Assembly (NCBI RefSeq): GCF_025699485.1
Contig: NZ_JANUXN010000018.1
Span: 1-64,000, forward strand
DNA: 64,000 nucleotides
Origin: Thauera carbonicopians
GTDB lineage: Bacteria; Pseudomonadota; Gammaproteobacteria; Burkholderiales; Rhodocyclaceae
Direction of reading: 5' to 3'
Shown: positions 12,643-49,978 of the stretch, one piece after another
Layout: every line of letters starts with the position of its first letter
Position numbering within the stretch: position 1 is the stretch's first letter
Translations under genes and position numbers: made by a program
The notes under the pieces: model-generated
Database searches by the model: none
Told to the model about the DNA's origin: nothing
The model's input: only the letters and a program-made list of their open reading frames with translations

Positions 12643-13728
12643 TTATTCGTACCGGGTTGCGCGCTCGACACGGCGCTGGCGCACGCCTTCGGCAAGCGTG
12701 TCGAGCACCTTCACGCTGTCCTCCCAGCCGATGCAGGCGTCGGTGATGCTCTTGCCGTATTCCAGCTCCTTGCCCGGCACCAGGTCCTGGCGCCCCTCGG
12801 TGAGGTGGGATTCGACCATCACGCCGATGATGCGGTCCTCGCCGGTGGCAAGCTGGCGGGCGATGTCGTCGGCGACCTCGATCTGCAGACGATGCTGCTT
12901 GCGGCTGTTGGCATGCGAGAAGTCGATCATGACCTTGCCCTGGACGCCGCTGGCGGCAAGCTCCTTGCATGCGGCATCGACGCTGGCGGCATCGTAGTTC
13001 GGCGCCTTGCCGCCGCGCAGGATGACGTGACAGTCCTCGTTGCCGCGGGTGGTGACGATGGCCGAATGGCCGGCCTTGGTCACCGACAGGAAATGGTGGG
13101 GCGACTGCGCGGCCTTGATCGCATCGACCGCGATGCGCACGTTGCCGTCGGTGCCGTTCTTGAAGCCGACCGGACACGACAGGCCGGAAGCGAGTTCGCG
13201 ATGCACCTGGCTTTCGGTGGTGCGCGCGCCGATCGCACCCCAGGAGATGAGGTCGGCAATGTACTGCGGCGTGATCATGTCGAGGAACTCGGTGCCGGCC
13301 GGCAGGCCGAGTTCGTTGATTTCCCACAGCAGCTTGCGCGCCAGGCGCACGCCGTCGTTGATGCGGTAGCTGTTGTCGAGGCCGGGGTCGTTGATCAGGC
13401 CCTTCCAGCCCACGGTGGTGCGCGGCTTCTCGAAATAGACTCGCATGACGATCAGCAGATCGTCCTTCAGGCGGTCGGCCTCGGCCTTGAGCCGGCTGGC
13501 GTATTCCATCGCCGCCGCGGGATCGTGGATCGAACACGGGCCGATCACCACCAGCAGACGGTCGTCGGCACCGAACAGGATGCGATGGATGGACTGGCGC
13601 GCCTCGTAAGCGACGGTCGCAGCCTTGGGCGTGGCCGGAAACTCGCGCAGCACGTGCGCCGGCGGCGCAAGCTCCTTGATTTCCTGGATGCGGACGTCGT
13701 CGATGTGGATCTTGGTGGAAGCGGGCAT
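12643..13728 (-). CDS. aroG: 3-deoxy-7-phosphoheptulonate (DAHP) synthase, class I
   Basis: A 361-residue enzyme that condenses phosphoenolpyruvate and erythrose 4-phosphate, the first step of the shikimate pathway. Family motifs are clear: VVIGPCSIHDP with the metal-binding Cys, MRVYFEKPRTTVGWKG, the substrate segment VGFKNGTDGN, and KVMIDFSHANS. Length fits the AroF/G/H family. Class I enzymes are usually inhibited by an aromatic amino acid; I cannot tell which. A TAGAAT -10 element lies about 40 bases before the start. Confidence 0.93.
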   Translation of the reverse strand: MPASTKIHIDDVRIQEIKELAPPAHVLREFPATPKAATVAYEARQSIHRILFGADDRLLVVIGPCSIHDPAAAMEYASRLKAEADRLKDDLLIVMRVYFEKPRTTVGWKGLINDPGLDNSYRINDGVRLARKLLWEINELGLPAGTEFLDMITPQYIADLISWGAIGARTTESQVHRELASGLSCPVGFKNGTDGNVRIAVDAIKAAQSPHHFLSVTKAGHSAIVTTRGNEDCHVILRGGKAPNYDAASVDAACKELAASGVQGKVMIDFSHANSRKQHRLQIEVADDIARQLATGEDRIIGVMVESHLTEGRQDLVPGKELEYGKSITDACIGWEDSVKVLDTLAEGVRQRRVERATRYE

Positions 13729-13766
13729 GGCAAAAACTCGGCATCTCTGGCTGGAAACAACTTGTG

Positions 13767-13772
13767 ATTCTA
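13767..13772 (-). promoter_or_regulatory. -10 element (TAGAAT) for aroG
   Basis: On the minus strand the sequence reads GAGCTAGAATCAC. A start near 13760 gives a leader of about 32 bases. The same TAGAAT hexamer precedes the yggX, argA and cytochrome c4 genes in this window. No good -35 element is visible. Confidence 0.4.
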
Positions 13773-13890
13773 GCTCGCATTTCCCGCAACAGGCGGAGCA
13801 GATACAGCGCCCGGCTTGCCCGGCTTATCCCAAATGCGTGATTTTTTCCATGACTCGCCGTAGTTTGTCGCCAATCCGGCACATCGGCAT

Positions 13891-13904
13891 GTCACATACG
13901 TGAC
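13891..13904. promoter_or_regulatory. short inverted repeat upstream of the TonB receptor
   Basis: GTCAC-ATAC-GTGAC is a perfect 5-base inverted repeat about 55 bases before the receptor start and 160 bases before aroG. It has the look of a dimeric regulator site, loosely like CRP/FNR-family sites, but the arms do not match either consensus well. No regulator gene is adjacent. Confidence 0.3.
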
Positions 13905-13958
13905 CTGTTGTGGGATCATCGCCGGTTCGATCGGGTAGGTGAAACTCATGGGTGAGAA

Positions 13959-16190
13959 ATGGCGCTGACTGTGCTCGGACACCGGCCGAAATGCCGAACC
14001 CTATGTGTGGCGGGATTCGTGGCGTCGTGCTGTATGCCGGTGCAGGCAGGCGCGAGCGAGGACGTGCTGCGCCTGTTGCCGCTGTCGCTGGAAGAACTCA
14101 TCCAGACGCCGATCGTCACCGCCTCGCACCGCGTCGAGCGACGCGACGACACTCCTGCCCATGTGATCGTGATCACCCGCGAGCAGATCAGGGCCCGCCG
14201 CTATCGCGACCTGGGCGAGTTGCTGAGCGACCTGCCCGGCGTCGATTTCATGGCGGGCAGCCGTTCGTCGATCTTCAACAACTTCAGCCTGCAGGGCTTC
14301 AACAGCAACAACCAGTTGCTGATCATGCTCGACGGCGTCCGCGTCGACGACCCTGCCGGCGGCAAGATCGCCGTGGCCCGCAACTTCTCGCTGTACATGG
14401 CACGCCAGGTCGAAGTGGTCTATGGGCCGGCGGCGGCGCTGTACGGCGCCGACGCGGTGGCCGGTGTCATCAACATCATCACCGACCAGGGCGAGCAGGC
14501 CGGCGACAACTGGGCTTCGGTGGGTGCGGGACGCTTCGACAGCCGCGAAGCGCAGTTCCTGTTCACGCTGAAGCCGGCCGAGGACGTGCGCTTCACCCTG
14601 GGCGGGCACAAGCAGCGCAGCGACCGTGCGCCGCTCGACCACTACTATCCGGATGATTTTCCCGCGGTGGATGCACAGGATTACGACGGCACGATCGTCG
14701 TGCCGGCGCAGGCCCGCCACCGCCACATCGATGGCATCGAAAGCCACAGCCTGTTCGCCCGCGCCGACCTCACCGAACATCTGACGCTGGGCTACTACCG
14801 CAACGGCTTCGGCCAGCCGACCAGCACGGGCGACCGTACCGACATGGCCCTGTACGACCGCCATGCGCGCTGGGAAACGGTTTCCGAGACCCTGTACGCA
14901 CGGGCACGCTTCCAGTTGACGGAGGACATCGAGGGCCGCCTGCTGATCGACTATGCACGCCAGGAAGCCGACCCCGACTCCAATTACCTGAACAAATACA
15001 CCGGCTTCGGCGCGCGCGGCTACAACTATGCCAAGGCCACCCGCACTGGCATCCGGCCCACGCTCCACTGGCGCATCGACGCTGCGCACGATCTGCAGGC
15101 CGGCATCGGCTACCAGGATTACGAGGCCATGCTGACGCCCAACCTGCCGCGCCGCTACCAGCAATCGCTGGGGACGCACGGCCAGGGCCTGAACTATGCC
15201 AACACCGACCTGCCGATCCTGATCCCCTCGGCACGCCACCACAACGAATTCGGCTACCTGCAATGGCAGGCGCAGTGGACACCGCAGTTCACCACCATGA
15301 TCGGCGTGCGCCACGATCGCCACTCGGGCTACGGCAGCAGCCTCAATCCGCGCCTGGGCGCGGTGTGGCAACCAGCGGACCGGCACGTCTTCAAGCTGTC
15401 CTACGGCGAAGCCTTCCGCGCGCCCTCCTACGACGAGTCGCTGTCGGCATACGGCGCCTTCAGCGGCGCCCGGGATGAGGAAGGACGCTACATTGGCAAG
15501 GGTTTCCGTGCCCCGAACGGAAAGCTCGAAGCCGAACGTGCGCGCACGCTCGGCCTGACCTGGGACTGGCGCCCGACACCATCGCTGAACCTGGTCACCC
15601 ACCTGTACCACAGCCACATCAACAACCTGATCGCCACGCTCAACGAGAAGGTGCCGACGCAGTACATCCCCGGCGCGGTGTTGAGCGAAACCACGATCAA
15701 GGGCAATGCCGGAAAGGCCCACCACACCGGCCTCGACATCAGCGGCCAGTGGCAATTCCGTACCGCCGGAGCCTGGCACGGCGAAGTGTGGGGCAGCCTG
15801 AGCTACATCGACGGCACCCTCCAGACGGGCGACGACGCCCGGAACTGGGACCTGCCCTATGTCGCGAAGCACAAGTTCAAGCTCGGCAGCACCTGGCGCT
15901 ACGGCGACACGCTGACGATCACGCCGCGCCTGACCTGGGTCGGCAAGACCACCACCGGGCGCAGGAATCCCGCGCGGCCGGGCCGTCACCTGACGGCCGA
16001 CGCCTGGTGGGTCGCCAGCCTGCACCTGGGCTGGCATCGCCTGCTGGACGGGCGCGCCACGCTGTGGCTGGACATCGACAACCTGTTCGACCGCCGCTAC
16101 CACGTCGCCCACGGGGCCGCCGACAGCACCCTGCTGACGATGCCGCAACAACCGCGCAGCTGGATGGCGACGCTGGAGTACCGCTTCTAA
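13959..16190 (+). CDS. TonB-dependent outer membrane receptor
   Basis: A 743-residue receptor. After an N-terminal signal region comes a TonB-box-like stretch (PIVTASHRVERRDD), then the plug domain (about residues 60-165) with LGELLSDLPGVDF, LIMLDGVRVDDP and the plug end VEVVYGPAAALYGADAVAGV. The rest is a beta-barrel; the C-terminus ends in aromatic F (ATLEYRF) as expected for Bam-assembled barrels. Ligand unknown. The stop is followed at once by the DUF4154 gene, and the kinase and GGDEF genes follow, so this receptor may sense or feed the signal for that system and not serve nutrition only. Confidence 0.88.
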   Translation: MALTVLGHRPKCRTLCVAGFVASCCMPVQAGASEDVLRLLPLSLEELIQTPIVTASHRVERRDDTPAHVIVITREQIRARRYRDLGELLSDLPGVDFMAGSRSSIFNNFSLQGFNSNNQLLIMLDGVRVDDPAGGKIAVARNFSLYMARQVEVVYGPAAALYGADAVAGVINIITDQGEQAGDNWASVGAGRFDSREAQFLFTLKPAEDVRFTLGGHKQRSDRAPLDHYYPDDFPAVDAQDYDGTIVVPAQARHRHIDGIESHSLFARADLTEHLTLGYYRNGFGQPTSTGDRTDMALYDRHARWETVSETLYARARFQLTEDIEGRLLIDYARQEADPDSNYLNKYTGFGARGYNYAKATRTGIRPTLHWRIDAAHDLQAGIGYQDYEAMLTPNLPRRYQQSLGTHGQGLNYANTDLPILIPSARHHNEFGYLQWQAQWTPQFTTMIGVRHDRHSGYGSSLNPRLGAVWQPADRHVFKLSYGEAFRAPSYDESLSAYGAFSGARDEEGRYIGKGFRAPNGKLEAERARTLGLTWDWRPTPSLNLVTHLYHSHINNLIATLNEKVPTQYIPGAVLSETTIKGNAGKAHHTGLDISGQWQFRTAGAWHGEVWGSLSYIDGTLQTGDDARNWDLPYVAKHKFKLGSTWRYGDTLTITPRLTWVGKTTTGRRNPARPGRHLTADAWWVASLHLGWHRLLDGRATLWLDIDNLFDRRYHVAHGAADSTLLTMPQQPRSWMATLEYRF

Positions 16191-16733
16191 ATGTGGCGGC
16201 GATACACGCGCGCCCTTGCAGGCCTGCTTGCCGGACTATGCTGCGGACTGGCCGCGGCACAGCCGCCGCCCCATGCCGCTTCGGAACAGGCCCTGAAGGC
16301 CGTCCTGCTGTTCAAGCTGCCGCTGTTCGTCTATGAACCACCGCTCGAAGACGCCCCCTCGCCGTCGATCTGCCACCTGGGGAGAAGCGGCCTGGAAGAC
16401 GCGCTGGCCCAGTTGCAGCGCTCCGTCACCGACGAACGCACGTTCAGCGTGCGCTACCTGGACGATGCCGCCCAGGCCGCCGACTGCGACATGGTGTTCA
16501 TCGGCAACTCCGAACGGCATCGCCTGGGGGCCATCCTGTCGCAACTGCACCGGCGCCCGCAGGTGACGGTATCCGACATCAAGGGTTTCGCCCAGTCCGG
16601 CGGCATCGTCGAACTGCTCGTCCGGAGCGAGGGTACGGGCATCGACATCGTGATCAACCAGCGCGTGGCACGCGAACGGGGCGTCAGCTTCAGCGCCCAA
16701 CTGCTGCGCCTCGCCCGCCCTCCGGGAGACTAG
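16191..16733 (+). CDS. periplasmic DUF4154 (YfiR-like) protein
   Basis: A 180-residue protein with a signal peptide (LLAGLCCGLAAAQ). The mature part matches the DUF4154 pattern: ALKAVLLFKLPLFVYE, then ICHLGRSGLEDAL, DCDMVFIGNSE, VTVSDIKGFAQSGGIVELL and the C-terminal LLRLARPPG. In Pseudomonas, YfiR is a periplasmic repressor of the membrane cyclase YfiN and acts on its CHASE8-type sensor. The next gene encodes a kinase with such a sensor, so a similar regulatory contact is a natural inference. Its ATG directly abuts the receptor stop. Two cysteines (in CHLG and DCDM) may form a disulfide. Confidence 0.8.
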   Translation: MWRRYTRALAGLLAGLCCGLAAAQPPPHAASEQALKAVLLFKLPLFVYEPPLEDAPSPSICHLGRSGLEDALAQLQRSVTDERTFSVRYLDDAAQAADCDMVFIGNSERHRLGAILSQLHRRPQVTVSDIKGFAQSGGIVELLVRSEGTGIDIVINQRVARERGVSFSAQLLRLARPPGD

Positions 16734-16736
16734 CCG

Positions 16737-19700
16737 ATGCGCCCGCAGCCGCGACATCGCATCGCGCGCCTGGCAGCCTCGCTGCCGGCCACCCTGGGCG
16801 GGCGCCTCAATCTGCTCGGCGCCGTCGCCCTGAGCGTGGCGACCCTGCTGGTCTTCGCCCTGATGTCGTTCCAGCAACAGCGCCTGCTGCGGACCGAATG
16901 GGTGGCCTCGCTTTCCGCTCAAGCCGCCCTGATCGCCAGCAACAGCCGTGCGGCCGTGGTCTTCGCCGACTACCGCGAGGCCGACGCCCTGCTGCAGGCA
17001 CTGTCGGCCAACCCGCTGATCCTCGAAGCCCGGCTGATACTGCCCGACAACGGCCTGCTGGCGGGCTATGCGCGCAACGGCAGCCCTTCCGCCGATGCAA
17101 GCGATGCGCCCGACGAGGCAACGGGCCACCGCTTCGGCGACGGCAGGCTGACCGTCTGGGCCCCGGTGCTGGAAGGCCAGCGGCAGGCGGCCCGGCTCGA
17201 GCTGGTCGCCTCGCTGGATCATCTCGGCAAGGTCTTCCTACGCTCGGCGCTGGAGGCGGCCACGGTCCTGCTGCTGGTACTGGCGGCGACGCTGGCGTCG
17301 ATGTCGCGCGTGATGCGCCGGTTGCTGGCGCCAGTCCATGCGCTGCGCGACCTGCTGCGGCGGCTGACCGACAATCCGGATCTCAGGACACGCGCGCAGC
17401 CCGGCGGAGGTACCGAAATCGCCGCCTTGGGGCGCGGCCTCAACGAATTGATCGACACCGTGCAGGCGCGCGACGCCGAGCTGGCTGCCTACCGGGACAA
17501 TCTCGAACAACTGGTCGAGCAGCGCACCCATGCACTGGCATCGGCGATGGCCGAAACGCACCGCGCCAACCAGGCAAAATCGGAGTTCCTGGCACGGATG
17601 AGCCACGAGATCCGCACCCCGATGAACGCCATCATCGGCCTGGGCGGACTGCTGCGCCGCTCGACGCTGACGCGCCGGCAGCGCGACCAGCTCGACAAGA
17701 TGCTGGCCTCGTCCGAAGCCTTGCTCGGCGTCATCAATGACGTGCTCGACTACTCCCGTATCGAAGCCGGCAAGCTGCCGCTGGAGTCGATTCCCTTCGA
17801 TCTGCTGGAGCTGTGCGAGCAGGCGCTCAGCGTGGTGGCGCTCAGGGCGGAGGAAAAGAACGTCGAGCTGCTGATGCTGCCCGACGAAAACCTGCCGACG
17901 CGGCTGGTCGGCGACCCGCTGCGCCTGCGCCAGATCCTGATCAACCTGCTGGCCAACGCGGTGAAATTCACCGAACAGGGCGAAGTCATGCTGCACGTCG
18001 GCCTGCGCGCCGGCGCAGCCCCGGCCGGCAAGGCAGCCTTGCGCCTGAGCGTGCACGACACCGGCATCGGCCTCACCGCCGCCCAGCAGGCCGTGCTGTT
18101 CCAGCCCTTCTCCCAGGGCGACGACTCCATCACCCGCCGCTTCGGCGGCACCGGGCTGGGGCTGTCGATCTGCGCACAACTGGTACGCATGATGGGCGGG
18201 CGCATCGACGTCGAGTCCGTTTCCGGCGAAGGCGCGCATTTCCACGTCGAGCTCGAGCTGCCCATTGCCCAGGCCGATGAGGCGGCCCCGGCCGAGATCG
18301 GCTTCCGCCATGCCCTGGTGGTCGCCGAAAGCCCGTCCGGCCGCCACGTGCTGTCGACCCTGTGCGCCCAGCAGGGGCTGCGCGCGAATGCCTGCGCGGA
18401 CGCAGGCCAGGCGGCTGCGCTACTGCAGGAAGGGCTCGACGCCGGCGACGCCTTCGACCTGATCCTGCTCGACTGGCGCATCGGCGACAGCGACGGCCTG
18501 GCGCTGGCAAGGCAGTTGCGCACCCGATTCGGCAAGGTTTTCGCCAGCGCGGACCTGCCCTTCCCGAAAGTCGTGCTGCAGACCGGCAACACCGGCCACG
18601 CCGGCATGGACGGGCAACCGCATACCGTCGGCATCGACGCCACGCTGGTCAAGCCTGCCCTGCCGCGAACCTTGCGGGCCGCCCTGGACGAGGCCCGCGC
18701 CGAAACGCCTCCTGCCGATTCCGCTGCCCAGCCTCCCGCTCCAGCCGCCCTGGCACCCTTGCGCGGCGCCCGGGTGCTGGTCGTCGACGATATGCCGCTC
18801 AACCGTGAAATCGCCCGCGCCTTTCTGCAGGACACCGGCCTGCAGGTCGCCGAAGCCAGCAATGGCGAGGAAGCGCTGGCCAGGCTCGCGGCGCAGCGCT
18901 GCGACCTGGTGCTGATGGATGTGCAGATGCCGATACTGGACGGCCTGGCGGCGGCGCGGCGCATCCGTGCCGGCTCGAACTGCCCGGACATCCCGATCAT
19001 CGCGATGACCGCGCACGCCCTGGACGGCGACCGCCAGCGCAGCCTCGAGGCCGGCATGAACGATCATCTCACCAAGCCGATCGACGTCGGCATGTTGTAC
19101 GCCGCGCTGCTGCGCTGGCTGCCGGCGCGCGACACCGACGCCCCCGCATCGACCTCGGCCACGGTCGCGGCGGCCGACTGCCCGCCGGCAACCCAGGCCG
19201 CGGCACCGGACACGGCAGGCTGGCCTGCCGAACTGCCCGGCATCGACATGGTCCGCGGCCTGGCCAACCACCTCGGCCGTCCGGCCCTGTACCGCCGCAT
19301 CCTCGACGAATTCGCCGCGGCCTTCGCCAGCGGAGGCGCTCCACTGCACCAGGCATTGGCATATGGGGATACCGAAACCGCTCACCGCTGGGTACACTCG
19401 CTGAAATCCGGCGCGGCGACCATCGGTGCTGCCGGGCTGGCTGCGCAGGCGCGCGACCTGGAGCACCGGCTGCGCGCCGGCCAGGCGCCCGGCGAGGCCG
19501 ATTTGCAGGCACTGGAGGCAAGCCTGCGTGCCGTATGCTCGGCACTGGCAACCTTGCCCGGCACGCGAACGCCGGAAGCGGGGCCGGCATCGGCTGCCGA
19601 GACTGCACGGCAAGTGGAGGAGGCGCTGCCGCTGATCGACGAAACGCTGGCGCTGCTGGCCCGTCACGATGCTCGCGCCGAAGGCGAAATACGCAGGCTG

Positions 19701-19835
19701 GGCAGCCTGCTGGAAGGTTCGGCCTGGCAAAACCATGCGGAAGCGATACGCACGCTGATCGAAGATGTCGAATACGAAACCGCCCTGCCACTGCTGGCCG
19801 CCCTGCGCGAGGACATGATCCAGGCACCGACATGA
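16737..19835 (+). CDS. hybrid sensor histidine kinase with CHASE8-like sensor
   Basis: A 1032-residue inner membrane kinase. Order: TM helix (about 24-44); CHASE8-like periplasmic domain (about 48-155; [20 protein letters not shown]); second TM (about 160-182); HAMP; HisKA with His290 in [16 protein letters not shown]; HATPase with [13 protein letters not shown] and [10 protein letters not shown]; receiver 1 with Asp579; receiver 2 with VVDD and Asp728 in [12 protein letters not shown]; HPt with His887 in [10 protein letters not shown]; and an 80-residue C-terminal tail. Receiver 1 has lost the acidic pair (VVAESPSG replaces the usual VVDD), so it may be a pseudo-receiver. The phosphate most likely passes to the receiver-GGDEF protein encoded in a 4-base overlap downstream. 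Confidence 0.88.
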
Positions 19836-20800
19836 ATGCCGATTCCACCGTACTCGTCGTCGACGACGAAAAGCACAATCGCCAGTTGCTCACCGAACTG
19901 CTGCAGCACGAATGCCGCCTGCTCCTGGCCAAGAGCGGAGAACAGGCGCTGGCGCTGGCACGCGAACTGCAGCCCGACCTGATCCTGCTCGATGTCGTGA
20001 TGCCGGGCATGAACGGCCATGCGGTGATCCGCCAGCTCAAGGACGACGACCGCACGCGCGACACGCCGGTGATCTTCATCACCGCGCTGGACTCCTTCGA
20101 TGACCAGAAGGTCGGCCTCGAACTGGGCGCCGTCGACTACATCACCAAACCCTTCCATCCCCCGATCGTCCGCGTCCGGGTCCGCAATCACCTGCGCCTG
20201 GTGGAACAGCGCCGCCTGCTCGAACAACTCGCCATGCTCGACAACCTCACCGGCATCCCCAACCGGCGGCGCTTCGTCGAAACCCTGGAGCATGAATGGC
20301 GGCGCTGCCTGCGCCATGCGCTTCCGCTGTCGATGATCGTGGCGGACGTCGATCACTTCAAACGGATCAACGACACCTATGGCCATGCGGAAGGCGACGA
20401 AGCGCTGCGCAGCGTGGCGCAGGCCCTGAAACGGGCGATACAGCGCCCCGGGGATTTCGTCTGCCGCTACGGTGGAGAGGAATTCGTGCTGCTGCTGCCG
20501 GGCGTCGACGAGGATGGCGCCGCCGAGTTTGCCGAAGCCGTGCGCCAGCGCATAGCCGCGATGCCGTTCCAGACCGCCGACGGCAGGCCGCTGCAGCTCA
20601 CGCTCAGCCTGGGAGGCGCAAGCCATGTGCCGACGACGCCCGAGGTGGGCAAGGAGCTGTTCCTCGCCGCCGACCGCGCGCTCTACGATGCCAAGCACGC
20701 CGGCCGCAACCGCATCGTCTGGGCGCGCACGCCGCCGCAGCCCGGCGGGCACGGCACCGTGAATGTGGCGGCGGCCACCTCTTCCACGCGCCCCTGCTGA
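19832..20800 (+). CDS. response regulator with GGDEF diguanylate cyclase domain
   Basis: A 322-residue PleD/WspR-like protein. The receiver (about 7-120) has [14 protein letters not shown], phosphoacceptor Asp54 in [13 protein letters not shown] and the conserved lysine in YITKPF. The GGDEF domain has [10 protein letters not shown] and the active site GGEEF at 214-218, a functional variant. The product-inhibition site RxxD is intact as RPGD at 205-208, five residues before it. It should make cyclic di-GMP when phosphorylated and be feedback inhibited. The start overlaps the kinase stop as ATGA, so kinase and cyclase are coupled. Confidence 0.9.
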
Positions 20801-20857
20801 ACCCCTCGACCGTTCCGACGGTCTATCCGGAACCGCATCCCCGCCTGAAAACTCCAC

Positions 20858-21808
<951 letters not shown>

Positions 21809-21823
21809 GAGAAGCCCCCCGAC

Positions 21824-22504
21824 ATGCCGAATTTCCTGCGCGCGCCCTCAGGCACGCAGATCGCCCTGATCAAGGCCGCCGTCTTCCTGGCCTGTCTGGT
21901 CCCCGCCGTGCAACTCGCGCTGGGCTGGCAGAACGACACGCTCGGTGCCAACCCCATCGAAACCATCACCCGCGCAAGCGGCGAATGGACGCTGCGCCTG
22001 CTGCTGATCACGCTCGCGGTCAGCCCGCTGCGGCGCTACACCGGGCTGCACTGGCTGCTCCGGCTGCGGCGCATGCTCGGGCTGTTCGCCTTCGCCTACG
22101 CTGCCGCGCACTTCACCACCTATGTCTGGCTGGACCAGTTCTTCGACTGGCAGGCGATCGCCCGCGACATCCTCGACCGCCCCTTCATCACCGTCGGCTT
22201 CGCCGCCTTCGTGCTGCTGATCCCGCTCGCCGCCACCTCCAGCAACGCCGCCATCCGCCGCCTGGGCGGCCGGCGCTGGCAGTCGCTGCACCGCTCGATC
22301 TACGCCATCGCCATCCTCGCCGTGGTGCATTTCTGGTGGCTGGTGAAGGCCGACCTGCTGAAACCCTTCATCTACGCGCTGATCCTCGCCGCCCTGCTCG
22401 GCCTGCGCGCCTGGTGGCGCGAACAGGAACGCCGCCGCCAGTTGTCGGTGCCGCCGCCGGCGAAGCACCTGGAAAGGCCCGTGATCAGGATCGTGCAGAA
22501 GTAG
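21824..22504 (+). CDS. msrQ: heme-binding membrane subunit MsrQ
   Basis: A 226-residue inner membrane protein with about six helices, the cytochrome b subunit that passes electrons from the quinone pool to MsrP. Heme-ligand histidines lie in helices: AAAHFTTYVWLD, WQSLHRSIYAIAI and VVHFWW. The segment TRASGEWTLRLLLITLAVSP is typical of YedZ/MsrQ. It forms an operon with msrP. Confidence 0.94.
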   Translation: MPNFLRAPSGTQIALIKAAVFLACLVPAVQLALGWQNDTLGANPIETITRASGEWTLRLLLITLAVSPLRRYTGLHWLLRLRRMLGLFAFAYAAAHFTTYVWLDQFFDWQAIARDILDRPFITVGFAAFVLLIPLAATSSNAAIRRLGGRRWQSLHRSIYAIAILAVVHFWWLVKADLLKPFIYALILAALLGLRAWWREQERRRQLSVPPPAKHLERPVIRIVQK

Positions 22505-47575: not shown

Positions 47576-49294
<1,719 letters not shown>

Positions 49295-49295
<1 letters not shown>

Positions 49296-49978
49296 CACCC
49301 CCGGCTACTCCCCTGGTCGGGGGTTTTTATTTGCCCCTCCTCCGCCCGATCCGCGGACGGAGCTTCCTGCCCGGCATCCGCCCCGGCGAGGCCGAGCCAG
49401 CCGCCGATGACGCGTTCGGCATCCTCGACGCCCGTCTTCTTCAGGCTGGAGAAGAGCTGGACCGTCACCTGCGGTCCCAGCGGCGCGAGCTGGCGCCGCA
49501 CGTCCTGCAGCGCCGCGCTGGCGGCGCCGCGCGACAGCTTGTCGCTCTTGGTCAGCAGGACGTGCATCGGCCGCCCCGACGGTGCGAACCAGTCGATCAT
49601 CTGGCGGTCGAGCGGCGTCAAGGGATGGCGCGAATCCATGATCAGCACCAGGCCGATCAGGCTTTCCCGCTTGCGCAGATAGTGCTCGATCAGGCCCTGC
49701 CACTCGCGCCGGATCTTCTCGGGAACCGCGGCATAGCCGTAGCCCGGCAGGTCGACCAGCAGCGCACCGCTGTTGAGGCGGAAGAAGTTGATCAACTGGG
49801 TGCGCCCCGGCGTCTTCGACACGAAAGCCAGCCGGACATGTCCGGCCAGCGTGTTGATCGCGCTCGACTTGCCCGCGTTGGAGCGCCCGGCGAAGGCGAT
49901 TTCCGCCCCGGAAGGCGGCGGCAGGCCGGACGGCTTGGCGATGGATATCTCGAATTGTGCGTTGCGGAAGATGGGCAT
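49295..49978 (-). CDS. engB: ribosome biogenesis GTPase EngB (YihA/YsxC)
   Basis: A 227-residue GTPase. G1 IAFAGRSNAGKSSAINTLAG, G3 LLVDLPGYGYAAVP, G4 LLTKSDKLSRG are in order, and SKTPGRTQLINFF is typical of EngB. The ATG at 49978 (MPIFRNAQF) matches the usual N-terminus; no ribosome site is visible, only a pyrimidine-rich tract. The C-terminal tail (about 25 residues) is longer than usual and its codons overlap the downstream hairpin region. Divergent from cytochrome c4, as in many gammaproteobacteria. Confidence 0.95.

Follow-up and report, generated by a model that had tools for sequence, protein, structure and literature searches.

Background

To our knowledge, the YfiR (DUF4154) family of proteins is known almost solely through the YfiBNR system of Pseudomonas and its relatives; AwsXRO of P. 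fluorescens is one such relative. Two further kinds of bacterial signaling device are pertinent here, namely FecA/FpvA-type TonB-dependent transducers, in which a receptor passes its signal inward through an N-terminal periplasmic part, and proteins such as PleD and WspR, in which a receiver controls a GGDEF domain furnished with an I-site. In this work we investigate a cluster of four genes at positions 13959 to 20800 of a 64,000-nucleotide stretch of the Thauera carbonicopians genome (contig NZ_JANUXN010000018.1, positions 1 to 64,000; hereafter the window), which combines a TonB-dependent receptor, a YfiR protein, a hybrid histidine kinase and a diguanylate cyclase. We find that TonB-dependent receptors are regular genomic neighbors of YfiR, and that the receptors so linked typically carry a distinctive short motif just before the TonB box.

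As described in the article text of PMC3375315, YfiR of P. aeruginosa represses YfiN through a periplasmic domain with the proposed binding site AAVVF, and mutations of this site abolish YfiR control. YfiB captures YfiR at the outer membrane, and the surface used for this partly coincides with the proposed YfiN site (article texts of PMC3375315, PMC4887326 and PMC4655355). The same text of Malone 2012 (PMC3375315) reports YfiR-YfiN[PAS] cores with kinase, HPt or GGDEF-EAL outputs, and names Thauera MZ1T as having two YfiRs and a hybrid kinase. A YfiR with a kinase output is, as reported there, already published, Thauera included; the new part is the outer-membrane side, that is, the pairing of a TonB receptor with YfiR. 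A search of the open-licence literature, a scope outside which supplementary tables, subscription papers and preprints lie, found no publication linking YfiR to TonB receptors, although five papers contain both words; the main texts of PMC3375315 and PMC4655355 do not use the word 'TonB', and what PMC12691633 says of YfiR has no bearing on the point.

Results and discussion

The four-gene cluster and its conservation in relatives

The cluster lies on the forward (+) strand and runs from a TonB-dependent receptor (743 aa, 13959..16190) through a YfiR/DUF4154 protein (180 aa, 16191..16733) and a hybrid histidine kinase with a CHASE8-HAMP-HisKA-HATPase-REC-REC-HPt architecture (1032 aa, 16737..19835) to a receiver-GGDEF diguanylate cyclase (322 aa, 19832..20800). 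The receptor is the proposed outer-membrane input, YfiR the proposed mobile periplasmic adaptor or repressor, and the cyclase the proposed output. The open reading frames (ORFs) are exactly as given by the first-pass annotation, as are their junctions: 0 bases between receptor and YfiR, 3 bases between YfiR and kinase, and a 4-base ATGA overlap of kinase and cyclase at 19832-19835. A promoter/terminator scan of positions 13600-21000 gave no signal above shuffles, and operon status is therefore judged from the junctions and from conservation.

Pfam matches identify the plug (1.8e-22) and barrel (2e-38) of the receptor, in which no STN domain was found by Pfam up to E 0.1; among PDB entries the receptor is closest in sequence to BtuB and Cir, over its N-terminal part only. 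The window YfiR matches PF13689 (E 1.6e-30, 106.6 bits against a gathering cut-off of 24.9), and its N-terminus, by eye, resembles a signal peptide. The CHASE8 sensor that had been proposed for the kinase is recovered by Pfam (7.7e-12; 45.8 bits, cut-off 27), together with HAMP (1e-7), Hpt (1.4e-7), HisKA, HATPase_c and two Response_reg stretches. The composition proposed for the last gene is likewise corroborated, with Response_reg (3.8e-27) and GGDEF (9.8e-49) matches and an intact RPGD I-site followed by an active-site GGEEF (20444..20485). Within the CHASE8 domain lies an AAVVF (16950..16964) that matches letter for letter the site at which YfiR is proposed to bind YfiN in P. aeruginosa, as given in the text of PMC3375315.

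Absence of co-occurrence of the four families in related genomes had been named as grounds for rejecting the first-pass proposal, and it is not what we find. A search by similarity to the window receptor gave 14 relatives in named records, with 47-96% identity over the best segment, from Thauera, Dechloromonas, Azonexus and loosely classified Betaproteobacteria, the nearest named one being that of Thauera butanivorans (96%). Receptor, YfiR, CHASE8 kinase and receiver-GGDEF protein are kept in order and orientation at 12 of these 14 loci, and the remaining two lie at contig ends. One is a 3.6 kb contig carrying the receptor alone (L324); at the other (L323), receptor and YfiR are followed by a kinase ORF of reduced length (656 aa); no fourth gene is in view, and its presence cannot be judged because this ORF ends about 650 bases short of the contig end. 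As the 14 loci were selected by receptor similarity, they indicate that the order is old and do not give its frequency.

When the window and the 12 complete loci are aligned, a comparison used in place of strict catalytic-residue regular expressions, which were too narrow, the phospho-acceptor His of HisKA (in MSHEIRTP; domain 17574..17771), the phospho-Asp of the second kinase receiver (18774..19109), the phospho-His of HPt (in VHSLKS; 19344..19535) and the Asp and Lys of the cyclase receiver are intact in all 13 sequences, each of which thereby has the conserved His-Asp-His-Asp residues of a multistep phosphorelay. Equally invariant (13/13) are the GGEEF site, the RxxD I-site and the CHASE8 docking Phe; the first kinase receiver is intact in only two, the window and T. 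butanivorans. Of the earlier proposal that the kinase passes phosphate through its HPt domain to a separate cyclase, the intact residues are thus upheld, and the transfer itself stays a prediction. What the sequence shows is a co-directional cluster that combines a TonB-dependent receptor and a YfiR with a CHASE8 hybrid kinase whose His-Asp-His-Asp relay residues are intact, and with a receiver-GGDEF cyclase whose catalytic and I-sites are intact.

TonB receptors as outer-membrane neighbors of YfiR

PF13689 was found in 29 of 61 genomes of a set of relatives and in 84 of 397 genomes of a phylum sample. We examined 45 neighborhoods from the former and 100 from the latter (4 of 104 phylum matches, G074:C29, G203:C173, G176:C155 and G066:C1:1970384, being omitted), which together with the window comprise 149 YfiR genes. 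Neighbors were annotated by distance rules and hidden Markov models (HMMs) grown from the proteins of the window and the loci, with Pfam applied to selected proteins; contig ends truncate some of the loci. A TonB receptor adjoins 103 of the 149 YfiR genes and a YfiB-like OmpA protein 21, with neither seen at 25 and both at none; the phylum sample alone gives 67, 19 and 23 of its 109 YfiR genes, respectively. The proposal of a TonB receptor as a partner gene of YfiR thus extends well beyond the window. Plug domains number 55 in the window genome (4.5 Mb) and 160 in total over ten other genomes, so that a receptor beside a random gene should be rare. The surveyed neighborhoods and the conserved order in relatives together lead us to reject a chance neighborhood of the four genes.

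The outputs behind YfiR are more varied. A CHASE8 kinase partners 80 YfiR genes, 66 of which have a TonB neighbor (54 upstream, 11 downstream, 1 divergent), and a CHASE8-GGDEF protein partners 39 (21 with OmpA, 13 with TonB, 5 with neither); all OmpA-linked cases have the CHASE8-GGDEF output. In addition, three YfiR genes lie beside CHASE8-only ORFs, all with TonB, and 21 have no CHASE8 neighbor by the distance rule, 18 of them with TonB. YfiR is fused to a histidine kinase in six genes, three with TonB nearby (L076, by Pfam; L182, L197, L202, L204 and L205, by the HMMs grown here).

Several unusual arrangements were also encountered. Two YfiRs occur at a single CHASE8 hybrid kinase in L036, L041 and L050; each has its own TonB receptor in the first two loci, and in the third one has a receptor and the other lies at a contig end. 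One genome (G051) with seven YfiR matches has TonB-YfiR pairs with no kinase in the examined stretch (L037, L040 and L062), possibly reflecting several receptors that feed few kinases. HDOD-receiver-GGDEF proteins, an unusual output make-up, lie at or just past the kinase in L034, L044, L045, L046 and L057, as confirmed by Pfam for L044 and L045.

Two kinds of YfiR

The two kinds of outer-membrane neighbor correspond to two kinds of YfiR. Both cysteine pairs of P. aeruginosa YfiR are present in 21/21 OmpA-linked, 0/103 TonB-linked and 2/25 partnerless members of the family. It is the second pair that is missing from every TonB-linked YfiR (0/103, with one retaining just its first Cys), and this pair borders the YfiB contact surface in the structural account of PMC4655355. 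The window YfiR has the first pair and lacks the second (C145-C152).

On a YfiR tree of 126 sequences, a fully supported branch sets apart the 14 OmpA-linked rows, accompanied by two rows for which no partner was detected; the tree was built by a quick method, with 54 of 123 inner branches below 80 and several long-branch warnings. Leaving unlabeled rows uncounted, the TonB/OmpA label changes once on this tree and the kinase/cyclase label seven times, and because of this difference, exchange of the output appears to have been more frequent than exchange of the outer-membrane partner. The window YfiR lies outside the OmpA-linked clade. The first-pass annotation had viewed the cluster as a phosphorelay version of YfiBNR itself, and in this full form we reject the view, given the missing adjacent YfiB and the separation of YfiB-type and TonB-type YfiRs on the tree. 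A YfiB-type system, consisting of YfiR, CHASE8-GGDEF and OmpA proteins, does occur elsewhere in the same genome (L032; G000:C25:1-9500, from 1708 on), which accordingly has one YfiR system of each kind and offers a built-in comparison for the TonB-type one. The CHASE8 docking Phe is common to both outputs, being found in 85/85 CHASE8-kinase and 40/40 CHASE8-GGDEF ORFs of the examined loci (125/125).

A short motif upstream of the TonB box in YfiR-linked receptors

Receptors linked to YfiR typically bear a stretch such as LSLEELM before the TonB box, which is rare in other receptors of the sampled genomes. In the window it is represented by LRLLPLSLEELI (receptor residues 37-48, 14067..14102), situated just before a TonB-box-like PIVTAS; its core is LSLEEL (residues 42-47), and the A1 profile matches from 14082 with an E-value of 2.3e-12. 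We propose it as a candidate YfiR-docking element.

Short upstream profiles were trained on part of the linked set, with no plug sequence included, linked receptors being those of the examined YfiR loci, a few of which do not adjoin YfiR (for example the second one in L190). After thinning for redundancy (106 to 68 linked, 51 to 41 unlinked) and removal of seven copies of linked receptors from the unlinked set, the short profile gave more than 8 bits in 60 of 68 held-out linked receptors versus 1 of 41 unlinked ones. Two other formulations were discarded: a 26-residue profile including the TonB box separated the sets more poorly (59/62 linked versus 27/42 unlinked above 5 bits), and a strict motif regular expression was too narrow (46/68 linked, 2/41 unlinked).

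The association is equally evident genome-wide. In the two survey sets, which include the genomes used for training and in which up to 20 candidates per genome were scored, 93 of 107 motif-covering matches lie within 6.5 kb of a YfiR gene, versus 1 of 101 partial matches missing the motif; counted by genome in the phylum sample, YfiR is present in 51 of 55 genomes with a motif-covering receptor versus 33 of 342 without. A replication in genomes G450 and above, out of 299 genomes of the order (up to 26 candidates per genome, some genera being shared with training), gave 60/69 versus 1/54 by the same distance measure, and YfiR is also present in 42 of the 44 genomes there that have a motif receptor.

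A receptor tree (FastTree, motif excluded) of 110 receptors, comprising 58 of 80 thinned linked and 52 unlinked ones, requires 6 changes of YfiR linkage, as against a shuffled mean of 36. Linked receptors are clustered on it, yet in more than one place, and the window receptor lies outside the main clade. These results bear on an alternative in which receptor and YfiR-kinase system are unrelated and share only their regulation, the motif being no more than the mark of a receptor subfamily. Operon genes need not touch, after all, and most YfiR-linked receptors are indeed related to one another on the tree; even so, we regard such a relationship as quite improbable, given that the TonB-YfiR linkage spans the phylum sample with both output types, includes pairs without a kinase in the examined stretch (L037, L040, L062), involves more than one receptor lineage and, through the motif, was replicated in genomes outside the training set.

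The motif may form a helix: this reading is inferential, as the hydrophobic moment favors it only mildly (mean 0.32 at 100 degrees versus 0.24 at 165, over 73 segments). Two siderophore-type receptors beside YfiR-kinase genes (L120 and L125) have an MDILELV or MDITELV stretch at a different spacing, a likeness noted by eye, the profile having reported neither.

A possible surface-to-c-di-GMP relay

The above observations are consistent with the following mechanism. By inference from YfiBNR, YfiR would bind the CHASE8 domain of the kinase at AAVVF and keep the kinase off. The receptor, as the present comparisons suggest, would do the job of YfiB: once loaded or energised by TonB, its N-terminal element before the TonB box would contact YfiR and draw it to the outer membrane, freeing the kinase. 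Phosphate would then pass from the HisKA His to the Asp of the second receiver, the His of HPt and finally the Asp of the cyclase receiver, and the phosphorylated cyclase would make cyclic di-GMP (c-di-GMP). The chain from YfiR through the kinase to the cyclase is likely to be right; that the receptor acts in the place of YfiB is reasonably probable; and direct docking of YfiR by the receptor motif is a tentative suggestion, which we would put somewhat below an even chance. The relay as a whole, from the cell surface to c-di-GMP through the four-gene cluster, we consider slightly favored.

The sign of control could be the reverse, with YfiR supporting the kinase and its capture by the receptor switching the system off, or with the kinase mainly dephosphorylating the cyclase. 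Both activities are possible for hybrid kinases in general; this version nonetheless seems unlikely to us, in view of the repression of YfiN by YfiR and the loss of that control on mutation of AAVVF, as described in the text of PMC3375315, with AAVVF kept in the window.

A number of observations weigh against the relay that we favor, or against its generality. Its sign rests on analogy, and the association of motif receptors with YfiR is in part a matter of descent. No TonB neighbor is seen at 14 of the 80 kinase systems, some of which lie at contig ends. A GGDEF or EAL protein is the next gene in just 20 of the 80 (17 of 28 in the relatives set), so that c-di-GMP is not the general output and a cyclase is one among several. 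The proposed YfiN-binding residue F162, which is Phe in 116 of 149 YfiRs, is Ile in that of the window, and the first cysteine pair is also missing in 22 of the 103 TonB-linked YfiRs. No motif-covering receptor was recovered from 33 of the 84 YfiR-bearing genomes in the phylum sample: 18 have a YfiB-type YfiR, which accounts for every OmpA-linked genome of that sample except the window's own, and the other 15 do not. In the replication a motif receptor lies close to 57 of 79 YfiR genes, leaving 22 with none nearby. Conversely, 14 of 107 motif-covering receptors in the survey and 9 of 69 in the replication have no YfiR within 6.5 kb, and a motif-covering receptor occurs without a detected YfiR in six genomes (G059, G123, G212, G278, G520 and G545).

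Exceptions and a possible PF04392 swap

In one of these six genomes, G278 (L310 8417-12458), the motif-bearing receptor is followed by an ABC_sub_bind protein (PF04392) and then by an sCache-GGDEF cyclase, and in another, G545 (G545:C1:455579-458235), the motif receptor has a PF04392 protein about 2 kb away. These were the sole two cases of PF04392 beside a motif receptor among 22 exception genomes searched. The PF04392 gene of G059 has a receptor some 2 kb away whose profile match does not cover the motif. At most other exceptions no YfiR or CHASE8 neighbor was found with the same HMMs. The YfiR fold resembles ABC substrate-binding domains in the accounts of PMC4887326 and PMC4655355. The presence of PF04392 in place of YfiR suggests that in some genomes a different periplasmic protein may occupy the partner position, which fits docking and ligand binding alike.

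Ligand binding is the basis of the remaining alternative, in which the receptor only imports a small molecule, YfiR takes it up in its pocket, and the loaded or empty state of that pocket switches the CHASE8 kinase with no need for contact between receptor and YfiR, much as solute-binding proteins switch some sensor kinases. The PF04392 proteins of G278, G545 and G059 and the likeness of folds are in keeping with this, and the pocket of P. aeruginosa YfiR binds vitamin B6 and Trp, as reported in the texts of PMC4887326 and PMC4655355. A pure ligand sensor leaves unexplained, however, both the receptor motif, seen above 8 bits in a single one of the 41 unlinked receptors of the same genomes, and the fact that TonB and OmpA partners never co-occur (0/149); we hold it to be rather unlikely, though the foremost of the rivals.

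Returning to capture of YfiR by the receptor, we tentatively advance a wider generalization, for which we would claim less than even likelihood. At the outer membrane, the YfiR family may be partnered mainly by TonB-dependent receptors, and a short N-terminal element ahead of the TonB box, shared by more than one lineage of receptors, may dock a mobile periplasmic adaptor, be it YfiR or, in a sister genus, an ABC_sub_bind protein. This would constitute a surface route separate from STN and anti-sigma factors, plugged into kinases, cyclases or both, with YfiBNR as the branch that has OmpA in the slot. If true, the uptake of scarce nutrients would feed directly into biofilm control and two-component signaling in many Proteobacteria, signaling would work through a small receptor element, and TonB receptors, DUF4154 proteins and CHASE8 kinases without an assigned role would gain one.

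Other features of the window

Directly 3' of the cluster, at 20858-22504, are two ORFs that resemble an MsrPQ (YedYZ) pair. A riboswitch at the operon was considered and set aside, the sole Rfam match in the window at gathering thresholds being an anti-hemB RNA (RF02837, 68.7 bits) at 49245-49331. For protein P0001 phmmer found no PDB relative at E up to 1.

Comparison with known systems

The window cluster resembles YfiBNR of P. aeruginosa in its periplasmic YfiR, its outer-membrane partner, its CHASE8/PAS sensor with AAVVF and its proposed c-di-GMP output. It departs from that system in having a TonB receptor rather than an OmpA/Pal-like YfiB, with no OmpA match beside its YfiR; in bearing CHASE8 on a hybrid kinase, with the receiver-GGDEF protein encoded by a separate gene, whereas YfiN joins sensor and GGDEF in one protein; and in a YfiR that lies apart from the OmpA-linked clade and, for want of the C145-C152 pair, has fewer than the four cysteines of its YfiBNR counterpart. 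With the Malone 2012 modules it shares a kinase output behind a periplasmic domain that YfiR would bind, and it differs from them, as they are described in the text of PMC3375315, in the TonB receptors, the receptor motif, the split in cysteines and the receiver-GGDEF partner.

Relative to the FecA/FpvA transducers, the window receptor is without an STN domain and has instead a motif of about 12 residues, its proposed partner being YfiR and not an anti-sigma factor. Finally, the output protein is like PleD and WspR in being a receiver-GGDEF protein with an I-site, and unlike them in its proposed feed from a YfiR-gated hybrid kinase with an HPt domain.

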